A stretch of 64,000 nt of DNA from Bacteroidota bacterium (GTDB taxonomy: Bacteria > Bacteroidota > Ignavibacteria > Ignavibacteriales > Ignavibacteriaceae). The stretch covers positions 62,001-126,000 of the forward strand of contig JAIUOE010000001.1 in NCBI GenBank assembly GCA_020161395.1. The letters run 5' to 3'. The stretch's first letter is position 1, and each line of letters begins with the position of its first letter. This document shows positions 31,934 through 44,495 of the stretch, piece by piece. The notes under the pieces were generated by a model. That model made no database searches. It had not been told where the DNA came from and worked only from the letters and a program-made list of their open reading frames with translations. The position numbers were made by a program, and so were the translations under genes.

Positions 31934-33490
31934 TCAACCAACCACTTTAAACACAGAATCAAGCACAGTTCCGTCCACCCAGTTGACAATCGCTACCACT
32001 TTGTCTCTGTCAAGCACAGGTTTCTGCGGCGGACCACCGACTATCTGATAAACCTCATCACGGATTTCCTCGATTTTCCTGATCGGCAAGCCCTTTCCTT
32101 CAACAGCTTTGAGGAGGTCTTCCCGTCTCGGGTTTATCGCTATTCCGCGCTCTGTCACAATGACATCGACAAGCTCGCCAGGGGCACAAATGGTTGTAAC
32201 CTCGTCCAAAATCACGGGTATTCTGTCCCGGAATGATGGTATTGCCAAAATGGAACATTTTGAAAAGAGACAATTCTGCCATCCACCAATTCCGTGCAAA
32301 AGCAAACCATCTGAATGAGAGACAACATTCGCATTAAAATTCACATCCACTTCTGTAGCTCCAAGCACAACGGCATCGAGGATCGAGGCAAAATTACCTT
32401 TACCGTGATAGTTGTAACTGGTAAATGGTGAAGTGTTCACATGCCCCGGGTTTTCTCTCATCGAACGCACACCCTCAAGATCGAAAGTTTGTCCGTCAAG
32501 GATGTAATCCACCAGTCCTTCCTCAAGCATCTGTACAAGATATTTGGTACTTCCGCCTCTGATGAACCGGGCTTTTATTCCGGTTTCCTTCATCCGTTCC
32601 TTAAGGAACATGGCAAAGGCGAGAGCAGTACCTCCGGCACCTGCCTGAAAAGAAAAACCGTCTTTCATTATTCCTGAAAGCTCGATGAATTTTGCCACAT
32701 ACTCAGCGATAAGGAGCCGGTCGGGCGATTTTGTAATCTCTGTTGTACCGGAAACAATCTTTGAGGAATCTCCAAGCGATTCCACCTCAACGACATAATC
32801 GACATTATTTCCCTGAATCTGCCATGGAATGCACGGGAAAGGGACAAGATTATCAGTAACAACAATAACCCTGTCGGCATATTCCGAGTCAGCAAGAGCA
32901 AATCCCAATAATCCGCATGCCGCGCGTCCCGTAACACCGTTGGCATTTCCAAAAGGATCTGCAGTTGGAGAAGCAATCACAGCAATATCGATATGTACCT
33001 CACCGTCCTGCACAGCCTGATATCTTCCTCCATGCGAACGGAGAACACCCACACCATTCATTTTACCATATGAAGTAAATCTGCCCAAAGGACCGTTCAT
33101 GCTACCTTCGATATGGCTTATGGTTCCGTCTTCGAGATATGGAATGAGGTGTTCGTGACACGGGAATGAGGCACTTGGGAACCACCGTATGTTCTTTATG
33201 CCCATCTCTTTTATTGTATCAAAAAGCAGATTTGTAACCACATCACCGTTTCTAAGGTGGTGGTGGGTTGAAATAGTCATACCATCTCTCAATCCCGCCT
33301 TTTCGAGAGCTGAACGGAGATTTGGCAAAAGTTTGTTACCGTCAGCAGGATAGTCAGCACATGTTCTTATCGGAGGTTTTGCTTTGAAACCGTCCGGTTT
33401 GTGCTGTCCGATTCCTTTATATGGGATTCTTTTTTGTCCGTTGACTTCGGTTGGCACAAGCCTACCCGCAGCATTTTTAATCATTTCCAT
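31934..33490 (-). CDS. citF: Citrate lyase alpha subunit (citrate CoA-/ACP-transferase)
   Basis: 518 residues, close to the usual length of CitF. It transfers the acyl carrier thioester from acetate to citrate to make citryl-ACP (or citryl-CoA). Family sequence is continuous: STHHHLRNGD, IEGSMNGPLG, GVLRSHGGRYQAVQDG, VVTDNLVPFPC, FQAGAGGTALAFA and a C-terminal GIAINPRREDL. It overlaps the upstream CitD-CitE fusion by 14 bases, so they are co-translated. The accessory genes for prosthetic-group synthesis (citC, citG, citX) are not in the window. Confidence 0.93.
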   Translation of the reverse strand: MEMIKNAAGRLVPTEVNGQKRIPYKGIGQHKPDGFKAKPPIRTCADYPADGNKLLPNLRSALEKAGLRDGMTISTHHHLRNGDVVTNLLFDTIKEMGIKNIRWFPSASFPCHEHLIPYLEDGTISHIEGSMNGPLGRFTSYGKMNGVGVLRSHGGRYQAVQDGEVHIDIAVIASPTADPFGNANGVTGRAACGLLGFALADSEYADRVIVVTDNLVPFPCIPWQIQGNNVDYVVEVESLGDSSKIVSGTTEITKSPDRLLIAEYVAKFIELSGIMKDGFSFQAGAGGTALAFAMFLKERMKETGIKARFIRGGSTKYLVQMLEEGLVDYILDGQTFDLEGVRSMRENPGHVNTSPFTSYNYHGKGNFASILDAVVLGATEVDVNFNANVVSHSDGLLLHGIGGWQNCLFSKCSILAIPSFRDRIPVILDEVTTICAPGELVDVIVTERGIAINPRREDLLKAVEGKGLPIRKIEEIRDEVYQIVGGPPQKPVLDRDKVVAIVNWVDGTVLDSVFKVVG

Positions 33491-34748
33491 GGTTCACCAT
33501 CCAGTCTTTCTCAATCAATCCGTTTAGAAGTGCAAGTTCAATAACTCTCTGAGCCCGTTTGACAACCGGCGGATCGATCATTTTTGTACCTATGGAGACA
33601 GCAGCGAGTCCTTTTGTGAGAGCATCTTCGAATGCCATTACAATTTTCATCGCCTTCTCGATCTCTTTTGAGGTCGGAGCAAAAGCGGTATGAATCGGCT
33701 GAATCTGCCTTGGATGAATGCAGCCCTTCCCTTCAAAACCGAAAGATTTGGATTCGAGGGTTGATTTTACAAGTCCTTCCATATCACCTACATCCGAGAA
33801 CACAGAATCAATCGCCTGAACTCCGGCTGCTTTTGCGGCATTAACCACCTGCATCCGTGCCCAAAAACTTTCGTTTCCTTCGAGAGTCCTTTCAGCACCG
33901 ATATCAGCAGTGTAGTCTTCGAGTCCAATGGCGAGTGAGCAAACGAGCGAAGAGGCTTTCGAAATTTCATAAGCATTTATCGCACCTCTTGCACTCTCTA
34001 TTATCGGCATAAACCAGATGTCATCTGTAATTCCGTGAAGTTTCTTTATCGCCTCCACTTCCTTCTCAACTTCGAGAATCTGCGAAGCTTCCTCAACTTT
34101 TGGAATCAATATCAGATTAACTTTTGCGGGAATGATGTATTTCAAATCCTCGAGTCCTAAGGGTAGCTGATTAATCCTTACCATCCTTTCACAACCGTAG
34201 AAATCGACACTTCTTAAGGCATTCCTTACGAGATACCTCGCGGCATCCTTTTCATCGGGTGCGACACTGTCTTCAAGATCGAGAATTATTCCATCGGGTC
34301 CGTGAAGTCCGGCATTCACAAAGAATTTTGGCTCATTTCCCGGAAGATAAAGCCTGCTTCTTCTAAGCCGGTTTTTGGCGGTTGGATTAATATCCTGTCG
34401 CAAAAAAGGCATCAAATATTCAGAAGTGACCGAAGAATCCATCCTTTTTACTGCAGCTTCAAACCGAGCAGCAATTACAAAAGGAAGTGCTCCTGCATCT
34501 TCGAGAGTAATTTCGACATTCTTTAAATCAAAAAATGCGGCCAGTTCCTCAAGTTGCCTTCTTATCGCATTGCCGTAAAGATTTCCAACCTTCGATTTGA
34601 TATTGAAGGAAGGGGAAGCAGCCCCATCCTTCAAATTTTTTGTTATCTCAATCCAACAGTCGGAACGGACTGATGTGCCTCTTTTACCGGCAGAACCACT
34701 TATCCGTGACTCTGTGACTCCGTGACTTTGTGACTTATTACTGTCCAT
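33477..34748 (-). CDS. CitD-CitE fusion: citrate lyase acyl-carrier domain plus citryl lyase beta subunit
   Basis: 423 residues. Residues about 22-105 align with the acyl carrier CitD (GTSVRSD, then YGNAIRRQLEELAAFF and EDAGALPFVIAARFEAAVKR). Residues 128-415 are an HpcH/HpaI-type CitE lyase (RSRLYLPGNEPKF, LDLEDSVAPDEKDAARYLVR, PIIESARGA, GLEDYTADIG, GKGCIHPRQI). CitD and CitE are normally separate. The CitD serine that carries the CoA-like prosthetic group is replaced by Arg28, with Ser29 one position later. The first 20 residues are encoded by a short repeat. The ATG follows the PrpD stop by one base. The CitE part could also act as citramalyl- or another acyl-CoA lyase. Confidence 0.88.
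   Translation of the reverse strand: MDSNKSQSHGVTESRISGSAGKRGTSVRSDCWIEITKNLKDGAASPSFNIKSKVGNLYGNAIRRQLEELAAFFDLKNVEITLEDAGALPFVIAARFEAAVKRMDSSVTSEYLMPFLRQDINPTAKNRLRRSRLYLPGNEPKFFVNAGLHGPDGIILDLEDSVAPDEKDAARYLVRNALRSVDFYGCERMVRINQLPLGLEDLKYIIPAKVNLILIPKVEEASQILEVEKEVEAIKKLHGITDDIWFMPIIESARGAINAYEISKASSLVCSLAIGLEDYTADIGAERTLEGNESFWARMQVVNAAKAAGVQAIDSVFSDVGDMEGLVKSTLESKSFGFEGKGCIHPRQIQPIHTAFAPTSKEIEKAMKIVMAFEDALTKGLAAVSIGTKMIDPPVVKRAQRVIELALLNGLIEKDWMVNHGND
34704..34735. repeat. GTGACTCY 8-mer repeat inside the citDE 5' coding region
   Basis: Four copies of a GTGACT-x-(x) word run from 34706 to 34735. On the coding strand they encode SQSHGVTESR at the N-terminus of the CitD-CitE fusion. Confidence 0.7.
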
Positions 34749-34749
34749 T

Positions 34750-36117
34750 TTAAACTACCAGTTTATCCATAAATTCAGCCGCTGAAAGATCATCACAATT
34801 GAATATCAGTTCTTTCACCGCATCTCTTCTTGCCTTGTTAAGTTTATCACCAGAAAGGGCTTCGAACTTGTTGTCGAGGTCTTCCTGAGTCATCGGTTCT
34901 CTCGGATCACCTTTTGGATACTCGAGATATTCCGAGAATTCTCTTCCGTCTTTTGTGCGTACCACGGCTTTGGAAGGCTGTTTTGCAGGGAACATCTTCT
35001 CAAATTCAAGTGATGCTTCACCTTTTATTTTGTCTATCACTTCCCAGATGTGCGGATCTTTCATCTTTTCATCGGAGAATGAATTGGTTGTGATTTTTTT
35101 ATCGACAATCGCGGCCGCAATGCAGTATGGAAGTGAATGATCAGCAGTTTCCCTCGATTCGGGACGGTATTTGTGCGGATCGAAAAGAATGTCGCAAGCT
35201 CTGGCAATGGTTGTGATAATAACTTCATCAATATCGTTATAGGTGAGATTGTTTTTGGTCATCACCTTCAAAACGGCGGTAATGTGAGTGTGAGTAAGTG
35301 CCTCGGTAGGGAATGCCTTCATGCTGCATTCGAGAATTTTATACTTTACACCAAGGTCACCAACAAGTTTTTCCATAGCCCAGCCGTCACCGAAACACTG
35401 CATAAATCCTTCTTTCCCTTCAAACACCAGTTCGGTACCTGAGTATCCCTTTTTCGCCATCAAAGCAGCGAAAACACCCGTCTGAACTGCCATCGGATCG
35501 ACGGTATTCTTCATCATTGTGAGTTTCCCGGCAGTCGGACATCCAATGGTATGATTGTGACATCCATTAATTCCGATTGCATTAACCATCTGATCCACCG
35601 TCAAACCTAAAACCTTGCCCGCAACTATCGGAGACACAAACTGCGTAAGCGTTGCATGATGCCATTTCCTTTCACGGACTCCCGGCACTGCAAACTCGCA
35701 AAGTCTCTGTTCAAATTCATAAGCGAGAACTATCGCCACAATTACATCCTTCATCGATGCACCTGCAAGTTCACCCGCAGAAAGTGCAGCCGGAATAATA
35801 TCCGACGGATGTGAAGGGTCTTCCTTCCAGTAGATGTCGTTGAAGTCGAGTGCACGAATCATCAGTGAGTTTACAAGTGAAGTGCTGACAGCAGGGAGTT
35901 TTGTGCCGAATCCGATGAGAGTCGACTCACCTTTGCCACCCATCTCTTCGTAAATCTCACGCATAATCCGCACATCTTTGGTGTTCATCGCACCATATGC
36001 ACAGCCGATTGAATCGTAGAGATACCGTTTTACTTCGTGTATTACTTCTTTTGGCAGATCTTCATATTTCAGATTTACTGCAAATTCCGATATAATTCTT
36101 GATATTGATTTGTCCAT
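34750..36117 (-). CDS. MmgE/PrpD-family dehydratase or decarboxylase
   Basis: About 455 residues of the MmgE/PrpD family, which includes 2-methylcitrate dehydratase (PrpD) and cis-aconitate decarboxylase. Recognisable segments are the N-terminal DSIGCAYGA, the substrate-loop motif SHPSDIIPAALSAGE, KWHHATLTQFVSP and the late MKAFPTEALTHTH. The start is set at MDKSISRI (36117) because GGATAC lies just before it; the longer frame runs into an intergenic repeat. The aconitase upstream and citrate lyase downstream favour a tricarboxylic substrate, but dehydratase and decarboxylase activities cannot be told apart by eye. Confidence 0.88.
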   Translation of the reverse strand: MDKSISRIISEFAVNLKYEDLPKEVIHEVKRYLYDSIGCAYGAMNTKDVRIMREIYEEMGGKGESTLIGFGTKLPAVSTSLVNSLMIRALDFNDIYWKEDPSHPSDIIPAALSAGELAGASMKDVIVAIVLAYEFEQRLCEFAVPGVRERKWHHATLTQFVSPIVAGKVLGLTVDQMVNAIGINGCHNHTIGCPTAGKLTMMKNTVDPMAVQTGVFAALMAKKGYSGTELVFEGKEGFMQCFGDGWAMEKLVGDLGVKYKILECSMKAFPTEALTHTHITAVLKVMTKNNLTYNDIDEVIITTIARACDILFDPHKYRPESRETADHSLPYCIAAAIVDKKITTNSFSDEKMKDPHIWEVIDKIKGEASLEFEKMFPAKQPSKAVVRTKDGREFSEYLEYPKGDPREPMTQEDLDNKFEALSGDKLNKARRDAVKELIFNCDDLSAAEFMDKLVV

Positions 36118-36139
36118 TTTTGTATCCTTTTTTATATAA

Positions 36140-36264
36140 AACCGCAAAGGTCGCAAAGAACGCAAAGATTTTTATCAGTAAGCAGATTAGAAAGATTTAG
36201 GCAGAAAAACATCAATAATTAATACCTGATACCTGACTTTGCGTTCTTTGCGTTCTTTGCGGTT
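36140..36264. repeat. Inverted pair of CGCAAAGAA-type 9-mer repeats
   Basis: 36140-36167 reads ACCGCAAAG-GTCGCAAAG-AACGCAAAG, and 36238-36264 carries nearly the reverse complement. The two arms can form a long hairpin between the aconitase and PrpD genes. Confidence 0.75.
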
Positions 36265-36271
36265 TATCGAA

Positions 36272-38269
36272 TCATAAATTATTCTTGACCCAGTTTTCAA
36301 GCCCGCCGGCAACTATAAGTTCCTGAGCTGCCTGACCGACAGCACCAAAGGGATAAATCTTTTCACCGACCGTTGCAGTTGAAGTTTGGAAATCCACTTT
36401 TATTTTCAGACCGGGTTTAACTGATGCTTTTTCGGCACCGAATTTTGCTTTCAGGTCATTCACCAGTTCGGGCACTTCAATTGTCAGAAATCCGTTGTTG
36501 ATCGCATTTCTCTTGTAAGTTTCGCTGAAAGAACCTGCAATCAGTACAGAAATACCGCGATATTTCAAAGCAGTTGCAGCCTGTTCACGAGAACTACCCG
36601 TGCCGAAATTGAATCCGCCAACCATCACATCACCTTCTTTGGCAAGGTTCTGAAATTCGGGATCATAGTTTTCCATCGCAACCGCAGCCTGACCTTCCGG
36701 TGTAATGTCATCCTGATAAGTGTACTTGCCCGGATAAATTCCATCCGTATTCAAATTGTCCTGATGACAGAAAATAATCTCACCTTCAATAACACCCGGA
36801 AAACCATCTATAATGGAGATTTGGGATGAGGTTTGAGGTTGCATTTTTGAAGTTTGAAGTTTGAAGTTTGAAGTTTGACTATCATACTTCATACCATCAT
36901 ACTTCATACCATCAAAATTGATGTATCCCGAAATCGCCGACTGAGCAACGACTGCCGGTGAAGCGAGATAAGCAAAGGAATCAGGACTCCCCATTCTTCC
37001 TTTGAAGTTACGGTTAGTTGCGGAAATTCCCGTTTCACCTGCTTCGAGGAGACCTGTACCAAGTCCGATACAAGGACCGCATCCCGGAGGAAGTGGTACC
37101 GCACCGGCATCCATCAGAATCTGCCAGTCGCCCCGTTTTTCTGATTCTGCCTGCACTTCGCTTGAAGCGGCAGCTACGAAAAACTTCACACCATCTGCAA
37201 TTTTGTTCCCTTTAAGAACGGCAGCAGCCTCGGCAATATCCTCGACACGACTGTTCACACAGGAAACGAGATATGCCTTGTCGATTTTTATCTTTTTGGC
37301 TTTCAGCTCCGATACCTTGTTCCACACCTTCACACCATTCGGTCCTGAAACAGCAGGTTCAACTGCATCGAGATTGATGGTGATTACTTTAGCATAAAAA
37401 GCATCCACATCAGGTCTGAGATCGTGCATGCTTGATTTTAATGAATCGATGGTTTTCTCATTGATTCTGGGGTGGATACCATCAATCGCATCAGCATCGG
37501 AATTGACACCCTGCAGACCGCGTTTTTTTATAAATTCTGCCCGCTCGGTAAGCCAGTCAACAGTCTCATCGTCCACAGGGAAAAGTCCGACAAGGGCACC
37601 CCATTCTGTGGTCATGTTTGCGATGGCGAGTCTTTGATCTATTGTAAGATATTGAACTCCGTCACCTGAAAATTCCACGGCATGATTCAACACCTCATCC
37701 TTCGAGAAATATCCGCAAAGCGTGATAATCAGGTCTTTACCTGTAACTCCGTGAGGAAGTCTGCCGTTAAGGACTACTTTTGCAACAGGGGGTATCTGCC
37801 ACCAGGTTTTGCCCGTTGCCCAGATTGCTGCCGCATCTGTACGGACGACCGGTGTCCCAAGACATCCCATTCCGCCGTACATGTTTGAGTGACTGTCTGA
37901 AGCCACCGCAAGCGCACCCGGGAAGGCATATCCCTCTTCGATCATAATCTGATGCCCGATTCCTCTTCCTGCGGGATAAAAATCGGCACCCATCCCGCGG
38001 GAAAATTCCTCGATCTTGCGGTATTTTTCAAGGTTTTTCTCGGAAGTATCCTGTATGTTGTGGTCGAGCGTGTTCACTACCTGTCTTGGATTGGCAAGCT
38101 TTGTGGCACCCGTTTCCTTGAATTTTGGGATCACAGCACCTGTGTTGTCATGAGTCATCACATGCTTTGGATGAATCATAACATAGTCGCCCGACTTGAC
38201 TTTGTACCCCTCGGGATAACCCGAAGAGTACCGCTGAACAATCTTTTCAACTAAATTCTGTGCCATCAT
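36272..38269 (-). CDS. Aconitase/homoaconitase-family hydratase with repeat-encoded linker insert
   Basis: 665 residues; interconverts citrate and isocitrate (or a homologous tricarboxylate) using a 4Fe-4S cluster. Cluster ligands are Cys337 in SCVNSR and Cys397/Cys400 in GCGPCIG. The N-terminal NLVEKIVQRY and HPKHVMTHDNTG, and the C-terminal swivel domain with FGTGSSREQAA, are intact. It has a single-chain aconitase/Lys4-like layout. The linker at about 453-486 is unusual: GMKYDGMKYD followed by SQTSNFKLQTSKMQPQTSS, encoded by tandem short repeats. Isocitrate is the simplest substrate given the neighbours, but homoaconitate or methylcitrate forms cannot be excluded. The second ATG, three bases downstream, is an equally good start. 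Confidence 0.92.
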   Translation of the reverse strand: MMAQNLVEKIVQRYSSGYPEGYKVKSGDYVMIHPKHVMTHDNTGAVIPKFKETGATKLANPRQVVNTLDHNIQDTSEKNLEKYRKIEEFSRGMGADFYPAGRGIGHQIMIEEGYAFPGALAVASDSHSNMYGGMGCLGTPVVRTDAAAIWATGKTWWQIPPVAKVVLNGRLPHGVTGKDLIITLCGYFSKDEVLNHAVEFSGDGVQYLTIDQRLAIANMTTEWGALVGLFPVDDETVDWLTERAEFIKKRGLQGVNSDADAIDGIHPRINEKTIDSLKSSMHDLRPDVDAFYAKVITINLDAVEPAVSGPNGVKVWNKVSELKAKKIKIDKAYLVSCVNSRVEDIAEAAAVLKGNKIADGVKFFVAAASSEVQAESEKRGDWQILMDAGAVPLPPGCGPCIGLGTGLLEAGETGISATNRNFKGRMGSPDSFAYLASPAVVAQSAISGYINFDGMKYDGMKYDSQTSNFKLQTSKMQPQTSSQISIIDGFPGVIEGEIIFCHQDNLNTDGIYPGKYTYQDDITPEGQAAVAMENYDPEFQNLAKEGDVMVGGFNFGTGSSREQAATALKYRGISVLIAGSFSETYKRNAINNGFLTIEVPELVNDLKAKFGAEKASVKPGLKIKVDFQTSTATVGEKIYPFGAVGQAAQELIVAGGLENWVKNNL
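36828..36908. repeat. Heptanucleotide and 15-bp repeats inside the aconitase gene
   Basis: Two GAGGTTT-like units at 36828-36841 and four perfect GAAGTTT units at 36849-36876 are followed by two copies of ATACTTCATACCATC. All are in frame with the hydratase and encode the inter-domain linker. The same GAGGTTT word occurs in non-coding DNA at 54241-54266. Confidence 0.9.
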
Positions 38270-38273
38270 TTCC

Positions 38274-38807
38274 TCAGGCTTTAAATGGTTCGAAACTTAC
38301 AAAATCAGCATGGTGAACAATGAGTGACTCTACACTTCTGTAGCCAAGATCACCCTCTTTTGAGTGTGTTGCAATGATGTGCTGAACCTCCGCCGGCAGA
38401 CCAAATCTGTCGGCAATTGCCAGTCCGCTAAATGGATGTCTTACAAGTTTTCCGGCAGGTGAAGTAATAAGTTTTCCGTCTTTCATGTCGTACTCAATCA
38501 GTTTGCCAACATCGATCAGAATTGCTCCCGAAATAACGAAGTCCATGTTGAAATTGATCGAATCACCAAAATTGTTTTTCATTATTTTGGCAATTTCGAA
38601 AGAGAGTTGAACTGCAGTCCTTTTATGATTCATAAAGGAGACATTGCAGTCTTTTATCAAAAGTGAGAAGGGAATTACATCAAGGTCTTCGGGCGACAAA
38701 ACACTGTTTTCGATTGCGTAAATCCAGCATTGAAGTGTCTTTTCTTTTAATTCGGGGTCCTGAATCCAATCGATTTCAGGCCATATTTTTAAAACTTTTT
38801 CTCTCAT
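38274..38807 (-). CDS. HD-domain-like protein with an altered metal motif
   Basis: About 177 residues. The layout is that of an HD-type phosphohydrolase: FMNHKRTAVQLS, GAILIDVGKLIEYD, RHPFSGLAIADRFGL, IIATHSKEG and SLIVHHADF. The defining His-Asp pair is Ile-Asp here (codons ATC GAT), so one metal ligand is missing while other histidines remain. The start is set at MREKVLK (38807) with GGATAC upstream. It lies four bases before the aconitase start in the same operon. It may be a regulatory or nucleotide-binding relic rather than an enzyme (inference). Confidence 0.75.
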   Translation of the reverse strand: MREKVLKIWPEIDWIQDPELKEKTLQCWIYAIENSVLSPEDLDVIPFSLLIKDCNVSFMNHKRTAVQLSFEIAKIMKNNFGDSINFNMDFVISGAILIDVGKLIEYDMKDGKLITSPAGKLVRHPFSGLAIADRFGLPAEVQHIIATHSKEGDLGYRSVESLIVHHADFVSFEPFKA

Positions 38808-38828
38808 GTTGTATCCGTTGAATTGTGA

Positions 38829-39007
38829 AACCGCAAAGAACGCCAAGATCGCAAAGGGTTGATTATTGTCTCCGCAACTTTTGCGGTGTTACGATTGTAA
38901 AATTCTTAATTGCACTATAGTGTTGTTTTTGTAATAAACCGCAAAGACCGCTAAGTTGCGCGAAGATTAAAAAACTATCTTTGCGCTCTCTGCGTCCTTT
39001 GCGGTTA
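38829..39007. repeat. Three CGCAAAGAA-type repeats in the HD-dehydrogenase gap
   Basis: Forward copies lie at 38829-38858 (AACCGCAAAGAACGCC...) and 38937-38965, and an inverted copy lies at 38979-39007 (CTTTGCGCTCTC...GCGGTTAA). Either forward copy can pair with the inverted one. They fill much of the intergenic gap. Confidence 0.75.
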
Positions 39008-39018
39008 AACATTTTATC

Positions 39019-40137
39019 TTAAATATACGCTGCTATTGCTTCTGCCATCTCGAGGGTTTTGGTATCGCCACCCATATCATAGGTTTTGAATTTACCTTCT
39101 TCGATAACACGGGCAACGGCACTCTCCACTTTTTCGGCAAGTTCTGTTTCACCAAGCCATTCAAGCATCATTTTTGCTGCGAGAATTGTAGCTATTGGAT
39201 TTACTTTGTACTGTCCGAAATATTTTGGAGCTGAGCCGTGTGTCGGTTCAAATACAGCGAGTTTTTCACCGATATTACCGGAGCAGCCAAAACCGAGTCC
39301 ACCCACCATCTGGGCACAGAGATCGGAAATGATGTCACCGAAGAGATTGGTGGCAACGAGTACATCATAGTTGTGGGGATTCTTTAACAGCCACATTGTG
39401 ATTGCATCAATGTTTGCGTCGTCCATCTGAATTTCAGGATAATCTTTTCTGACCTCTTTTGCGATGTCAAAGAAAAGTCCGTCAGTGGCTCTAACGACAT
39501 TGGCTTTGTGCACAATGGTTACTTTTTTGCGGTTGTTTTTGCGGGCATATTCAAAAGCAGCTCTGATGATTTTTTCAGAACCTTTTTTGGTATTTATTTT
39601 GCAGTTAATTGCATAATCATCGGCACCGAGTCCGGCGAAAACGGAGAAAGGTTTCGAATGTTTTGCAAGTACTTCAGCAACTTCTTCCGGAACGGGAGCG
39701 AACTCAACGCCGCAATAGAGATCTTCGGTGTTCTCTCTGAAAACTACGAGATCAATATTGTCCTTATAGTTGAGTGCGTTTCCTTTGTATCCTTTAGCAG
39801 GTCTTAGACAGTTGTAAAGGTCGAACATCTGACGCATTCTGACGATCGGTGACCTGTAAACAAGTCCTTTGCCCTGAAGCTCGGGAATCAGTTCCGCTTC
39901 CGAATCTTTTTTAGGTTTTGAAGTGATGGCACCAAACATGGCAGCATCAACATTTTTAAGCAATTCAATTGTTCTTTCAGGGAAGGCATCTCCTTCTGTT
40001 CTCCAGAATTCCCAGCCGATGTCTCCGTGAATATACTCAGCATCCAAGCCCGTTTTATCGAGCACTATCTTCGCGGCTTCAAGCACCTCAATGCCTATGC
40101 CATCGCCCGGCAACCAGGCTATTTTATATTTTGCCAT
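39019..40137 (-). CDS. NAD-type isocitrate/isopropylmalate-family dehydrogenase
   Basis: A 372-residue beta-hydroxyacid oxidative decarboxylase. Family motifs are WLPGDGIGIEV, the Lys-bearing TIVHKANVVRATDG, the metal-binding NLFGDIISDLCAQMVGG and GSAPKYFG near the cofactor. The substrate-recognition helix reads SPIVRMRQMFDLYNCLRP, which keeps the Ser and two Arg but does not exactly match textbook isocitrate, isopropylmalate or homoisocitrate versions. Isocitrate dehydrogenase is the simplest call because aconitase and citrate lyase are neighbours. RBS GGAGAG gives 6 bases of spacing. Cofactor preference cannot be decided reliably. Confidence 0.85.
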   Translation of the reverse strand: MAKYKIAWLPGDGIGIEVLEAAKIVLDKTGLDAEYIHGDIGWEFWRTEGDAFPERTIELLKNVDAAMFGAITSKPKKDSEAELIPELQGKGLVYRSPIVRMRQMFDLYNCLRPAKGYKGNALNYKDNIDLVVFRENTEDLYCGVEFAPVPEEVAEVLAKHSKPFSVFAGLGADDYAINCKINTKKGSEKIIRAAFEYARKNNRKKVTIVHKANVVRATDGLFFDIAKEVRKDYPEIQMDDANIDAITMWLLKNPHNYDVLVATNLFGDIISDLCAQMVGGLGFGCSGNIGEKLAVFEPTHGSAPKYFGQYKVNPIATILAAKMMLEWLGETELAEKVESAVARVIEEGKFKTYDMGGDTKTLEMAEAIAAYI

Positions 40138-40254: not shown

Positions 40255-41394
40255 TCATCCCGTCATAAAGCTGAGGAGAATACCTGCAGCTACTGCACTT
40301 CCGATAACACCCGCGACATTTGGTGCCATCGCGTGCATCAGGAGATGATTCGTTTTATCATATTCCAATCCGATAACTTGTGAAACTCTCGCACTGTCAG
40401 GAACAGCAGAAACACCTGCATTTCCGATAAGCGGATTTATCTTGTCACCCGGTTTTAAAAAGAGGTTCATAACCTTTACAAACAGAACACCTCCCGCAGT
40501 GGCAACAATAAAGGATACGGCTCCAAGAACAAAGATCAGTATCGACTTCGGCGTGAGAAATGTAGTTGCCTGTGTGGAGGCACCCACAGTAAGGCCGAGG
40601 ATAATCGTTACAACATCGATCATGGGTCTGGCTGCGGTATCTGCAAGTCTTTTTGTTACTCCGCTCTCTTTTAGGATGTTACCAAAGAAGAGGGTTCCCA
40701 AAAGAGGGAGTGCACTCGGTGAAATGAAGGTGGTAAGAAGCAGACCAAGAATCGGAAAAAGAATTTTCTCTGTTCTCGAAACCACTCTCGGGGGCTTCAT
40801 TCTGATGAGCCGTTCCTTTTGATTGGTAAAGAGTCTCATAACAGGCGGCTGAATCAGCGGAACCAGTGCCATATATGAATAAGCTGAAATTGCGATTGCA
40901 CCTATCAGATGCGGCGCCAGTTTTGATGCGAGGAAGATAGCGGTTGGACCGTCAGCTCCGCCGATAATACCAATTGATGCGGCTTCGTTTGGTGTAAAAC
41001 CAAGCATAATTGCGCCAATAAATGTGGCGAAGATCCCAATTTGAGCCGCTGCCCCTATCAGAATCAACTTGGGATTCGACAGGAGCGTGGAAAAATCGGT
41101 CATTGCTCCAATTCCAAGAAAAATTAATGGCGGGTATATACCATTTAGTACACCAAAATAGAGATAATTAAGAGTGCTTCCTTTTTCATAGATGCCTATA
41201 CCAAGACCGGCATTCTCTAAAAAAGGTATATTCCCCACTATTATCCCAAACCCAATGGGAACCAAAAGTAATGGTTCATACTCTTTGGTGATGGCAAGAT
41301 AAATAAAGAGCAACCCTACAATAATCATAACGATATGTCCAATCGTTATGTTAGCGAAGGAAGTGTATTCGATAAACTTGGTAATACTCTCCAC
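40255..41394 (-). CDS. mmdB: Na+-translocating decarboxylase beta subunit
   Basis: A 379-residue polytopic membrane protein of the OadB/GcdB/MmdB family. It is the sodium channel/pump subunit where decarboxylation of the carboxybiotin drives Na+ export. The hallmark GGADGPTAIF contains Asp148, matching the essential Asp of OadB. About ten TM segments are visible. The start codon is GTG (41394), supported by TAGGAG seven bases upstream and overlapping the previous gene's 3' end. The last gene of the pump set, directly after the biotin carrier. Confidence 0.94.
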   Translation of the reverse strand: MESITKFIEYTSFANITIGHIVMIIVGLLFIYLAITKEYEPLLLVPIGFGIIVGNIPFLENAGLGIGIYEKGSTLNYLYFGVLNGIYPPLIFLGIGAMTDFSTLLSNPKLILIGAAAQIGIFATFIGAIMLGFTPNEAASIGIIGGADGPTAIFLASKLAPHLIGAIAISAYSYMALVPLIQPPVMRLFTNQKERLIRMKPPRVVSRTEKILFPILGLLLTTFISPSALPLLGTLFFGNILKESGVTKRLADTAARPMIDVVTIILGLTVGASTQATTFLTPKSILIFVLGAVSFIVATAGGVLFVKVMNLFLKPGDKINPLIGNAGVSAVPDSARVSQVIGLEYDKTNHLLMHAMAPNVAGVIGSAVAAGILLSFMTG

Positions 41395-41395
41395 T

Positions 41396-41836
41396 TTAAT
41401 CTCCTATTACTAACAGGAGATCACCTTCCATAACAGTATCACCTTGCTTTACAACCAGTTCCTTTATAGTACCCGGTTTGTCGGCATCTATCTTGTTTTC
41501 CATCTTCATGGCTTCAAGTATAAGGAGTTTGTCTCCCATCTTGACTTTGTCACCAACTTTGACGAAGACTTCCAAAATCGTACCAGGCAGCGGACTTTTG
41601 ATTCCGCCGGTTGCTTTTGGGGCTGGTTTCGTCGTCTTAACAGTCGATTTATCAACATCTGTCGATGGAACTGCTCTCTCTCTTACGAGTTTGGGAGTTA
41701 TCGGCTGAGCGAGTTTTTTCTCAATCTCTACTTCATAGACCGATCCGTTTACTTCTATTTCGGCAGTATCACCCTCGATGTTCTTAACCTGTACATGGTA
41801 ATCGTTGCCGTTTATTTTAAAGTTAAATTTTTTCAT
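41396..41836 (-). CDS. mmdC: Biotin carboxyl carrier subunit of methylmalonyl-CoA decarboxylase
   Basis: 146 residues. A small N-terminal beta domain and a Pro/Lys/Thr-rich flexible linker (about 45-78) precede a biotinyl/lipoyl attachment domain at 79-146. Biotinyl-Lys111 lies in LEAMKMENKI and the fold signatures are SPLPGTILEV and VKVGDKVK. It shuttles CO2 between the carboxyltransferase and the beta pump subunit. RBS GAGGAA. Confidence 0.95.
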   Translation of the reverse strand: MKKFNFKINGNDYHVQVKNIEGDTAEIEVNGSVYEVEIEKKLAQPITPKLVRERAVPSTDVDKSTVKTTKPAPKATGGIKSPLPGTILEVFVKVGDKVKMGDKLLILEAMKMENKIDADKPGTIKELVVKQGDTVMEGDLLLVIGD

Positions 41837-41850
41837 TGTTTCCTCATTAA

Positions 41851-42381
41851 TTACCAGTTTCTGGGGTGGCGGCGAAGGTTATAAATCTTGGAGCTCCATG
41901 GAGTGTACATTCTGGAGACCCTGTTGATCGTCAGAATCGTATTTTCCTGGTCGTGATTTGCGTTAAAGAATGAGTACAAAGCCATTGCTATGGCGGCATT
42001 CACTTCAGCGCTCATCTCTTCCTTCGGTTGACTTCCTTCCTTTTCAGGACTTCCTTTCGCATGTTTTTTTGCAACTGATTTTTTGATCAGATTACTCGCC
42101 AAAGAAAATGAAAGATAAAGGGCAGCGAGTGCAAAAAACACAACTCCCATTCCAATAACCGTCAGGACAAAGCTGTTGCCATTTCCTTTGATGTCATCCA
42201 TCGTATTAGCAGGGTTGAAGTGTATCAGTTCGCTTACATTCTCATCTTTCACAGGCTGTTTAAGAGAATCAGCCGCCTGAACTTTCGCCGTATCAACTTT
42301 TGCAGTTGCATTATTCTGTGGCAAGGCAACAGACACCATCAGCAAAAGAAGAAAAAGCAGCAGAAATTTTGTTTGTTTCAT
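41851..42381 (-). CDS. mmdD: OadG-family (gamma/delta) membrane subunit of the Na+ pump
   Basis: 176 residues. An N-terminal hydrophobic signal/anchor (about 5-20) is followed by a polar stretch and a single strong TM helix at about 70-95 (TVIGMGVVFFALAALYLSF). A charged segment leads to a conserved C-terminal part (AAIAMALYSFF, then SRMYTPWSSKIYNLRRHPRN) typical of this subunit in Bacteroidota. It anchors the soluble subunits to the pump. RBS AAGGAAG. Confidence 0.88.
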   Translation of the reverse strand: MKQTKFLLLFLLLLMVSVALPQNNATAKVDTAKVQAADSLKQPVKDENVSELIHFNPANTMDDIKGNGNSFVLTVIGMGVVFFALAALYLSFSLASNLIKKSVAKKHAKGSPEKEGSQPKEEMSAEVNAAIAMALYSFFNANHDQENTILTINRVSRMYTPWSSKIYNLRRHPRNW

Positions 42382-42391
42382 GGCTTCTTCC

Positions 42392-43945
42392 TTATAGCGG
42401 TATGTTAGCGTGTTTCTTAGGCGGAAGTGTATCCTTCTTTGTAGCGAGCGACTGCAATGCCCGGATTACTCTGAAACGGGTATTTCTTGGCTCGATTACA
42501 TCATCAAGGTAGCCATATTTTGCAGCAACATAGGGAGAGGCAAACTTGTTTTTGTACTCTTCCTCTTTCTGCTTGATGAATTCCACTCTTTCCTTGTCAT
42601 CGGTAATGGCACTTATTTCCTTGTTGTGAAGTATTTCTATAGCACCTTTTGGACCCATAACTGCTATTTCGGCTGTGGGCCATGCGTAGTTGATGTCGCC
42701 TCTAAGGTGTTTCGAACCCATAACATCATAGGCTCCACCATAGGCTTTTCTAAGTACGATTGTAACTTTTGGAACTGTTGCCTCACCATAAGCGAAAAGA
42801 AGTTTTGCTCCGTGGATGATGATTCCGCCATATTCCTGAGCCGTGCCGGGAAGGAAGCCGGGAACATCTACAAAGGTTACAACTGGAATGTTGAAAGCAT
42901 CGCAGAATCTTACAAAACGGGCTGCTTTTCTGGATGAATTAATGTCCAAAACACCGGCAATATAATTTGGCTGATTTGCTACAATTCCAACGGGCATCCC
43001 ATTGAATCTTGCAAAACCAATCACTATGTTCGGAGCAAAGTGCCGCTGAATTTCCACAAATTCGTTATAATCAACCACTGCGTGAATAACATCTCTTACA
43101 TCGTAAGGAACCGACGGATTATCAGGAATTATTGAATTGAGATGGTCTTCAAGCCTGTCAATCGGATCATCACAAGGTGCCAGCGGGGGATCTTCAAGAT
43201 TGTTCTGTGGCAGAAAGCTTAAAAGTTTTCTTATAAGCAGTATTCCCTCTTCTTCATCTTCAGCGATAAAATGGGAAACACCCGACTTGGAACCATGAAC
43301 ATATGCACCCCCCAGTTCCTCATCTGTTACATCTTCACCCGTTACGGTTTTTACAACTTTTGGTCCTGTCACAAACATGTAACTGGTGTCCCTCGACATC
43401 AGGATAAAATCGGTAAGCGCAGGTGAATAAACAGCGCCGCCCGCACAAGGTCCAAATATTGCCGAAATCTGTGGGATTACACCGGAGGCAAGAATGTTTC
43501 TTTCAAATATTTCTGCATAGCCTCCAAGTGATTTAACACCTTCCTGAATACGGGCACCGCCTGAATCGTTGATACCAATTACAGGAGCGCCAACTTTAAG
43601 GGCTTTGTCCATTACCTTGCAAATCTTTTCAGCATACATTTCTGACAGGGAACCGCCAAAAACGGTAAAATCCTGCGAAAAGATATATACAAGCCTTCCA
43701 TCAATTGTGCCATAACCGGTAACAACACCATCAGAGAGGTACTGTTGCTGATCGAGACCGAAATCGATGCAACGGTGCGATACAAACATGTCAAACTCTT
43801 CGAAACTCCCGGGATCGAGAAGAAGATCAATCCTCTCCCTCGCTGTCATCTTACCTTTTTTATGTTGTGCTTCTATTCTTTTTTCACCGCCACCCATACG
43901 GGCTTGTTTGCGGAGATCCATCAATTCTTTTATTTTTTGTTCCAT
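42392..43945 (-). CDS. mmdA: Methylmalonyl-CoA decarboxylase carboxyltransferase subunit (acyl-CoA carboxylase beta family)
   Basis: 517 residues, full length for the family. It transfers the carboxyl group from methylmalonyl-CoA to biotin, giving propionyl-CoA. Motifs include [55 protein letters not shown] and [14 protein letters not shown]. The neighbours (biotin carrier, OadG, OadB, epimerase) argue for the Na+-pumping decarboxylase rather than propionyl-CoA carboxylase, which would need a biotin carboxylase gene that is absent here. Confidence 0.93.
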
Positions 43946-43969
43946 ATATGTATACCTCGGAAACCGAAA

Positions 43970-44380
43970 TTAATTTTCCGGATGTTCGCACAGTTCAGTG
44001 AGAACGCCCAGAGTTGATTTTGGGTGCAGGAAGGCGATATTCAATCCCTCAGCACCTTTTCTTGGTTGTTTATCTATCAGTGAAACTCCTTTAGCCGCAG
44101 CATCATCCAGCGACTCCTGCAAACCTTTGGCTGCAAAAGCGATGTGATGAATTCCGGGTCCTTTTTTTTCAATGAATTTGGCGACAGGTCCGTCGGGTGC
44201 GGTCGATTCGAGGAGTTCTATTTTGGTCTGCCCTATCTGGAAAAAGGCGGTTTTTACTTTTTGATCTGCCACTTCTTCAATTTTGTAGCATTTCAAACCC
44301 AGTATATTTTCATAATAAGCGATTGCTGCTTCCATGTTTTCAACAGCAATCCCGATATGTTCTATGTGTGTTAGATTCAT
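43970..44380 (-). CDS. mce: Methylmalonyl-CoA epimerase
   Basis: About 136 residues of the glyoxalase/VOC fold. It interconverts the R and S forms of methylmalonyl-CoA, feeding the decarboxylase. Metal ligands appear as His in HIEHIGIAV, His in IHHIAFAA and Glu in LTELCEH. The start is set at MNLTHIEH (44380), since the longer frame adds 28 residues not found in the family. It is the promoter-proximal gene of the pump operon. Confidence 0.93.
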   Translation of the reverse strand: MNLTHIEHIGIAVENMEAAIAYYENILGLKCYKIEEVADQKVKTAFFQIGQTKIELLESTAPDGPVAKFIEKKGPGIHHIAFAAKGLQESLDDAAAKGVSLIDKQPRKGAEGLNIAFLHPKSTLGVLTELCEHPEN

Positions 44381-44462
44381 TTTTCTGTCCAAAATATAAT
44401 AAATCAGGTTATAAAACATCGTAAAAATGTTCGAATCTAACAAATCTTTTTCACGGGTTGAC

Positions 44463-44495
44463 AAAAAAAAAGCCGCCCTTTTTAAGGGGCAGCTT
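44463..44495 (-). terminator. Terminator of the large T9SS gene
   Basis: Read on the minus strand, AAGCTGCCC pairs with GGGCGGCTT (one G-T pair), followed by a run of nine T. Confidence 0.85.

Follow-up and report, generated by a model that had tools for sequence, protein, structure and literature searches.

Citrate lyase is the textbook enzyme bound to an unusual covalent coenzyme A (CoA)-like arm, and a gene from a member of the Ignavibacteriaceae raises the question of how such a lyase might work once the anchor of that arm is gone. The gene lies in a stretch of 64,000 nucleotides (hereafter the window; Bacteroidota bacterium, assembly GCA_020161395.1, contig JAIUOE010000001.1, positions 62,001 to 126,000) and encodes the acyl carrier CitD joined to the lyase subunit CitE, with an arginine at the attachment site of the carrier and a gene for the transferase subunit CitF directly downstream. 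We consider it probable, at roughly 60%, that the product is a carrier-free enzyme of the citrate lyase type that uses free CoA thioesters, the covalent phosphoribosyl-dephospho-CoA arm having been abandoned. The features on which this reading rests are the following (window coordinates).

33477..34748, minus strand: CitD-CitE fusion protein, 423 residues; open reading frame confirmed, near full-length homolog in 44 of 59 genomes (own included)
34440..34679, minus strand: CitD/MdcC-like (Pfam ACP) domain, residues 24-103; Pfam ACP/CitD match
34656..34667, minus strand: R28-S29-D30-C31 loop in place of the E-S-S/G-D attachment motif; alignment of 56 fusions
33519..34370, minus strand: CitE (acyl thioester lyase) domain, residues 127-410; profile match and invariant catalytic residues
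31934..33490, minus strand: CitF, citrate lyase alpha / acyl transferase, 518 residues; TIGR01584 515 bits (cut-off 501.45), PF04223 465.9 bits

A widespread CitD-CitE fusion

An earlier note, made from the letters of the window, had read the frame at 33477-34748 as a CitD-CitE fusion and left its strand unstated. The frame exists, on the minus strand, and the joining of the two subunits in one protein is borne out by the Pfam ACP/CitD match together with a match to HpcH_HpaI, which covers residues 130-346. Among the genome of origin and its relatives (59 genomes), 45 matched the fusion protein, 44 near full length and the remaining one (G026) through a 41-residue piece only. A CitD domain was present in 26 of 247 genomes of the phylum, in frames of 377-455 residues that are all of the fusion type, and 14 further fusion loci in named records came from Ignavibacteria, Bacteroidales, other Bacteroidetes, one Cloacimonadota, and bins titled only "bacterium". 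With 57 distinct homologs and the same motif in 56 distinct proteins, sequencing error or chance was ruled out. A tree of the CitE part separated 53 fusions (3 of 56 were dropped by the trimming rule) from 10 canonical sequences by one branch with 100/100 support, under a long-branch warning.

Two sequences have interrupted frames. The fusion gene of locus L062 (genome G056) is frameshifted after its RSDC motif, while CitF and other cluster genes are present, through either sequencing error or real decay. A second CitE-like sequence lies elsewhere in the genome of origin (G000:C5:248290-249243), with 36% identity and three stops inside the aligned stretch.

Arginine in the attachment column

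At the CitD attachment site, the fusion of the window reads V-R28-S29-D30-C31, where all nine canonical CitDs compared (E. coli and eight records from a plasmid collection) read E-S-(S/G)-D. We take the first serine of the canonical ESSD to be the attachment point. When 56 distinct fusions, that is, the 57 distinct proteins minus the frameshifted L062, whose RSDC is visible in another frame, were aligned by MAFFT with the nine canonical CitDs, the attachment column held Arg in 54 fusions, Lys in one, and Ser in one. The following two columns held Ser and then Asp in 56 of 56, and the Cys31 column held Cys in 55, Val in one (L048), and Cys in 0 of the 9 canonical CitDs. In a separate alignment of 15 fusions (that of the window, or its fragment, and L031-L044), R28, S29, D30, and C31 were invariant (15/15), and the mean column identity of the CitD part was 54%.

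The TIGR01608 profile led to the same register. E. coli CitD residues 1-94 lie on profile positions 1-94 and residue 24 of the fusion lies at profile position 10, so that Arg28 falls in the column of E. coli Ser14, provided that there is no gap within residues 24-28; MAFFT placed Arg28 likewise, with no gap there. The earlier note had put Arg28 at the Ser14 position and Ser29 directly before the Asp, and both alignments agree with it. Its description of the prosthetic-group serine as displaced did not hold: Ser29 aligns with the second serine of the canonical ESSD (a serine in eight of the nine canonical CitDs and a glycine in that of E. coli) and is therefore the old neighbour rather than a moved attachment site. 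An alignment shifted so as to make Ser29 the attachment residue was ruled out by MAFFT and by the TIGR01608 register. Judged from the aligned sequences, the attachment serine is replaced by arginine, not displaced. With TIGR01608, the fusion scored 43.2 bits, below the cut-off of 63.5, compared with 100.3 bits for E. coli CitD, 86.8 for the canonical CitD of genome G286 (see below), and 154.9 for K. pneumoniae. One of the records used, L098 (CP125156.1), is a 5.4-Mb Klebsiella sequence labelled as a plasmid, and its size suggests a chromosome.

Fold of the CitD domain

Structure prediction of the CitD part, a check proposed in the earlier note, pointed to a retained CitD/MdcC-like fold. The AlphaFold2 model of the domain had a predicted local distance difference test score (pLDDT) of 88.5, and its top row in VIA-align was the malonate decarboxylase carrier MdcC (5vit_C; Z 9.5, root-mean-square deviation 2.1 over 83 residues), the next rows reaching Z 8.4 at most. 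Foldseek ranked MdcC ninth (E 1.0e-2, probability 1.00). Sequence searches of the domain against the PDB did not recover MdcC, which was given by fold comparison alone. The structure of MdcC has the prosthetic Ser25 at the end of a loop between two antiparallel strands, with the carrier ribose 2'-OH modelled about 10 Å away (PMC5534430). The R-S-D loop joins two strands too, both in the model of the fusion and in that of the CitD domain.

Genes for making and attaching the cofactor

The genome of origin (4.07 Mb, window included, with a completeness of 100% as given by the tool) was searched for cofactor genes, each with E. coli as a positive control. No CitG was found in this genome or in a draw of 247 genomes of the phylum (0/247), the same size as the draw with the 26 CitD-bearing genomes; CitX was found in 0 of the 59 genomes, including that of origin; and CitC (PF08218) had no match in the genome of origin. 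The earlier note had reported citC, citG, and citX as missing nearby and had proposed a genome search for the latter two; none of the three was found in the whole genome of origin. For CitC, 28 of the 59 relatives had partial matches, in frames of 160-187 residues scoring 19.9-30.4 bits (E. coli citC has 1059 bp). MdcG was found in 0 of the 59 genomes, with a control set that also had no genome over the cut-off. CitG alone is no proof that a lyase cofactor is used: citG and citX both occur in Geobacter sulfurreducens, which lacks the lyase genes (PMC2996986).

One genome offers a natural control. CitG was present in 1 of the 14 other fusion-bearing genomes, G286 (Bacteroidales isolate metabat2.99), which is also the only one of the 14 with a second CitD, free-standing, carrying ESSD, and over the CitD cut-off.

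L104, 7044-17088: canonical cit cluster of G286, with CitD, CitE, CitF, a CitX-CitG protein, and CitC

As the CitG of G286 sits in this separate cluster, it goes with the canonical carrier. The CitF of the cluster scored 644.2 bits and its CitC 282.6 bits (over cut-off). G286 also holds an RSDC fusion, and the two types could be compared directly within it, provided that this metagenome bin is clean; its origin may be mixed.

Catalytic residues of CitE and the partner CitF

Residues E159, D160, R191, E251, D278, and D392 of the CitE domain are invariant in the 15 aligned fusions (15/15), and their homologs have catalytic or metal-binding roles in CitE-like lyases (PMC3832036). The domain scored 291.2 bits with TIGR01588 against a cut-off of 443.4, which does not separate the two types, as the canonical CitE of G286 is also below it (323.7 bits); it scored higher with the citE model (291 bits) than with RipC (162 bits). 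An I[N/H]P pattern in CitE was ruled out as a feature that would cleanly mark the use of free CoA. Of 57 fusions, 56 have IHPRQ, and the five CitE-like PDB sequences compared have IHP; among nine canonical CitEs, five have INPRQ, three have no match to the pattern, and that of Gluconobacter albidus has IHPRQ too.

The citF gene follows the fusion gene with a 14-base overlap. Gene context was compared in 25 loci, comprising 15 fetched stretches and 10 of the 14 loci of other fusion-bearing genomes (L032, L033, L040, and L041 were excluded as short), and in all 25 CitF lay downstream of the fusion, on its strand; the distance was about 0.6 kb or less in 24.

Probable use of free CoA in place of the arm

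Free CoA thioesters replacing the covalent arm would be the most economical account of these observations. The earlier note had suggested that the complex may use free CoA instead of the carrier, and this is the reading best supported by the loss of the attachment serine and by the searches in which CitG, CitX, and CitC were not found. CitF would then swap acyl groups on free CoA (acetyl-CoA + acid <-> acid-CoA + acetate), the CitE domain would split the hydroxyacyl-CoA into acetyl-CoA and a 2-oxo acid, and CoA thioesters would do the shuttling between the two. What was once the carrier domain would persist, fused to CitE, as a docking piece, with Arg28, at the old Ser-phosphoribosyl link, and its loop most likely recognising the ribose-phosphate end of free CoA. 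MdcA belongs to the transferase class of CitF, and direct attack of the acid on the acyl thioester is the mechanism proposed for it (PMC5534430), so that a diffusible thioester could serve. MdcD-MdcE acts on malonyl-CoA in vitro (PMC5534430), and free CoA thioesters are the substrates of those stand-alone CitE-like enzymes that have been characterised (PMC3832036).

The strong constraint on the loop, with Ser29 and Asp30 in every fusion and Cys31 in all but one, would also suit a prosthetic group carried by Ser29 or another loop residue and added by an unrecognised enzyme. Modification of the neighbouring serine, the other possibility raised in the earlier note, is weakened by the finding that the counterpart of Ser29 is likewise conserved in canonical CitDs, where presumably the first Ser is the attachment point, and by the lack of any CitG or CitX homolog in the genomes searched (for MdcG, 0/59, the control caveat given above applies); we regard such a modified loop as improbable. 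Cys31 might instead replace the prosthetic thiol and carry the acyl group directly as a cysteine thioester, in line with its presence in 55 of 56 fusions and none of the nine canonical CitDs. A cysteine would, however, lack the long arm needed to reach two active sites, and Val stands at this column in L048, so we give this idea very little credence. Finally, the CitD domain could be a dead remnant, in a complex that is inactive or merely structural, as the missing attachment serine and the CitD score below the cut-off (43.2 against 63.5 bits) might suggest. The loop invariant in 15 of 15 fusions, the 54% identity of the CitD part, and the invariant CitE catalytic residues do not fit decay, and we can hardly believe in such a remnant: from its conservation, the enzyme looks alive.

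Several points weigh against the free-CoA account. The L018 fusion (ISSDC) keeps Ser at the standard position; it is the one homolog in 56 of the kind that the earlier note had named as counter-evidence. Its genome, G057, is one of the 59 without CitX, and L018 and the Lys-bearing L046 look derived, as both are nested inside the Arg-bearing group in the CitE-part tree. A modifying enzyme unrelated to CitX or CitG may exist, and most of the 14 other fusion-bearing genomes are bins without stated completeness. On the structural side, Foldseek gave the CitD-domain model no match as good as E 0.001 and listed elongation factor G above MdcC (domain IV of that factor is among the folds nearest MdcC; PMC5534430); the model of the whole fusion is moderate (pLDDT 73.7), and its residues 120-154 are too weak for the position of the loop with respect to the CitE site to be read from it. 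In addition, when 24 full-length fusion-type CitFs (of 26) were compared with nine canonical ones (the Azospirillum CitF was left out), the fusion type showed fixed changes at positions that all nine canonical CitFs conserve, among them L304R, H397W, and D399N in E. coli numbering (Arg311, Trp404, and Asn406, with others, in the CitF at 31934-33490). These changes hint at altered acyl or acid recognition and, taken with the types of the neighbouring enzymes described below, mean that citrate and acetyl-CoA may not be the substrates.

Neighbouring genes and the nature of the acid

The reading of a carrier-free lyase leaves a choice of acid, on which the genes upstream of the fusion bear. Counts for neighbours refer to matches of E 1e-8 or better, on either strand and anywhere in the stretch, with several stretches ending at contig ends and identities going down to about 30%.

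34750..36165, minus strand: MmgE/PrpD family protein, directly upstream of the fusion; match in 14 of 25 loci
36272..38269, minus strand: aconitase-superfamily protein, homoaconitase type (TIGR00139); superfamily match in 17 of 25 loci
38274..38846, minus strand: HDIG-domain protein, between the aconitase-type and dehydrogenase genes; match in 16 of 25 loci
39019..40137, minus strand: isocitrate/homoisocitrate/isopropylmalate dehydrogenase-family protein; match in 17 of 25 loci
40255-44464, minus strand: methylmalonyl-CoA-decarboxylase-like sodium pump genes; profile scores
30844-31428, plus strand, on the far side of citF: AbiEi-antitoxin-like gene; no open reading frame of at least 90 residues directly downstream on its strand

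The sodium pump set consists of a methylmalonyl-CoA epimerase (over cut-off), an mmdA-like carboxyltransferase (under cut-off), a biotin-carrier-like protein, and a beta subunit, and the part of it covered in the same-genus locus L080 is conserved.

The aconitase of the cluster scored 862 bits with the homoaconitase model TIGR00139 (cut-off 529.9) versus 351 with aconitate hydratase PRK07229 (cut-off 612), and the solved structure closest to it is the homoaconitase large subunit 4kp2. The best models for the dehydrogenase are those of homoisocitrate dehydrogenase, all under cut-off, and among solved structures it comes nearest to a homoisocitrate dehydrogenase (253.6 bits), followed closely by a putative NAD isocitrate dehydrogenase (247.0 bits). 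Other contigs of the genome of origin carry a standard aconitase (TIGR01340, 1210.6 bits) and a standard NADP isocitrate dehydrogenase (TIGR00183, 672.4 bits), and citrate synthase is present in 57 of the 59 genomes. Four aconitases and four dehydrogenases were typed in other loci. The L081 aconitase matched the homoaconitase model above its cut-off (900.9 bits), those of L035 and L036 agreed best with broad aconitase/isopropylmalate dehydratase and homoaconitate hydratase family models, and that of L087 fell in no family at the threshold used; the dehydrogenases of L035, L036, L081, and L039 were all closest to homoisocitrate dehydrogenase models, under cut-off. On this typing and the standard enzymes elsewhere, the view of the neighbours as plain aconitase and isocitrate dehydrogenase, with citrate well ahead, was given up.

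The acid would thus be citrate (giving oxaloacetate) or, about equally likely, a close homologue such as homocitrate (giving 2-oxoglutarate). Homocitrate is a serious rival to citrate because of the neighbour typing here and in the other loci, the standard enzymes elsewhere in the genome, and the fixed changes in CitF motifs; the canonical cluster of G286, by contrast, adjoins a true AcnB and a monomeric isocitrate dehydrogenase, both over their cut-offs. The choice stays between the two because CitF still passes the citF cut-off (515 vs 501.45 bits), although narrowly beside the 644.2 bits of the canonical G286 CitF. Citrate and isocitrate may, moreover, still be substrates of homoaconitase-type proteins and of these dehydrogenases, and the nearest homoisocitrate and putative isocitrate dehydrogenase structures are less than 7 bits apart. 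The assumption of citrate as the substrate thus keeps the support of the CitF score and is made less sure by the neighbours, and we put a homologue of citrate in place of citrate itself, which would be compatible with the free-CoA mechanism, at somewhat short of even odds.

In the homocitrate version, CitF would form homocitryl-CoA and CitE would split it into acetyl-CoA and 2-oxoglutarate, or the reverse. A fuller picture, in which the carrier domain has turned into a non-covalent CoA dock with a phosphate-gripping arginine and serves a carrier-free homocitrate lyase that runs forward or in reverse with the homoaconitase-like and homoisocitrate-dehydrogenase-like enzymes of the cluster, seems to us unlikely as a whole, if worth stating. 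The term "homocitrate lyase" had no match in the literature searched, which leaves many subscription papers outside.

Relation to known systems

The locus resembles the ATP-independent citrate lyase CitD-CitE-CitF of E. coli, Klebsiella, and lactic acid bacteria in its three components, its CitE catalytic residues, the order D-E-F, and a CitF over the cut-off. It differs in that CitD and CitE are fused, the attachment Ser is an Arg, the CitD part is under the curated cut-off, citC, citX, and citG were not found in the genome of origin, and the neighbours are of the homoaconitase and homoisocitrate dehydrogenase type. We call it a citrate-lyase variant because it would work like citrate lyase yet fails on the attachment serine, on CitG, CitX, and CitC, and on the curated CitD score.

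With the free-CoA CitE-like lyases (malyl-CoA lyase, human CLYBL, M. tuberculosis CitE, and RipC), it shares the lyase family and the metal and catalytic residues; unlike them, it is not a stand-alone CitE, having a fused CitD domain and a CitF downstream in 25 of 25 loci. Those enzymes are not known to be joined to a CitD domain or to have CitF as a partner. The model of the CitD domain of the fusion resembles MdcC (PDB 5vit_C, the top VIA-align row) in fold; MdcC carries the prosthetic group on Ser25 (PMC5534430), unlike the present loop with its Arg. The citryl-CoA synthetase and citryl-CoA lyase of Aquificae cleave citrate via free citryl-CoA (PMC9560492), but a synthetase makes the thioester there and a CitF-type transferase would do so here. 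No published description of this fusion, or of a citrate lyase without prosthetic group, was found in the literature searched, with many subscription papers lying outside that search.

If the acid is citrate, the enzyme would bear on carbon metabolism such as, if the species carries the fusion, the reductive tricarboxylic acid cycle of Melioribacter roseus; this organism is said to lack ATP-citrate lyase, which leaves the cycle incomplete unless another enzyme substitutes (PMC3534657). If it is homocitrate, the locus would point to an undescribed 2-oxo-acid route. In either case, a lineage that keeps the carrier fold but has dispensed with the arm, and in which no trace of the genes for making it was found, would illustrate, if our reading is true, the way in which a carrier of this kind is given up, leaving a lyase of two genes.

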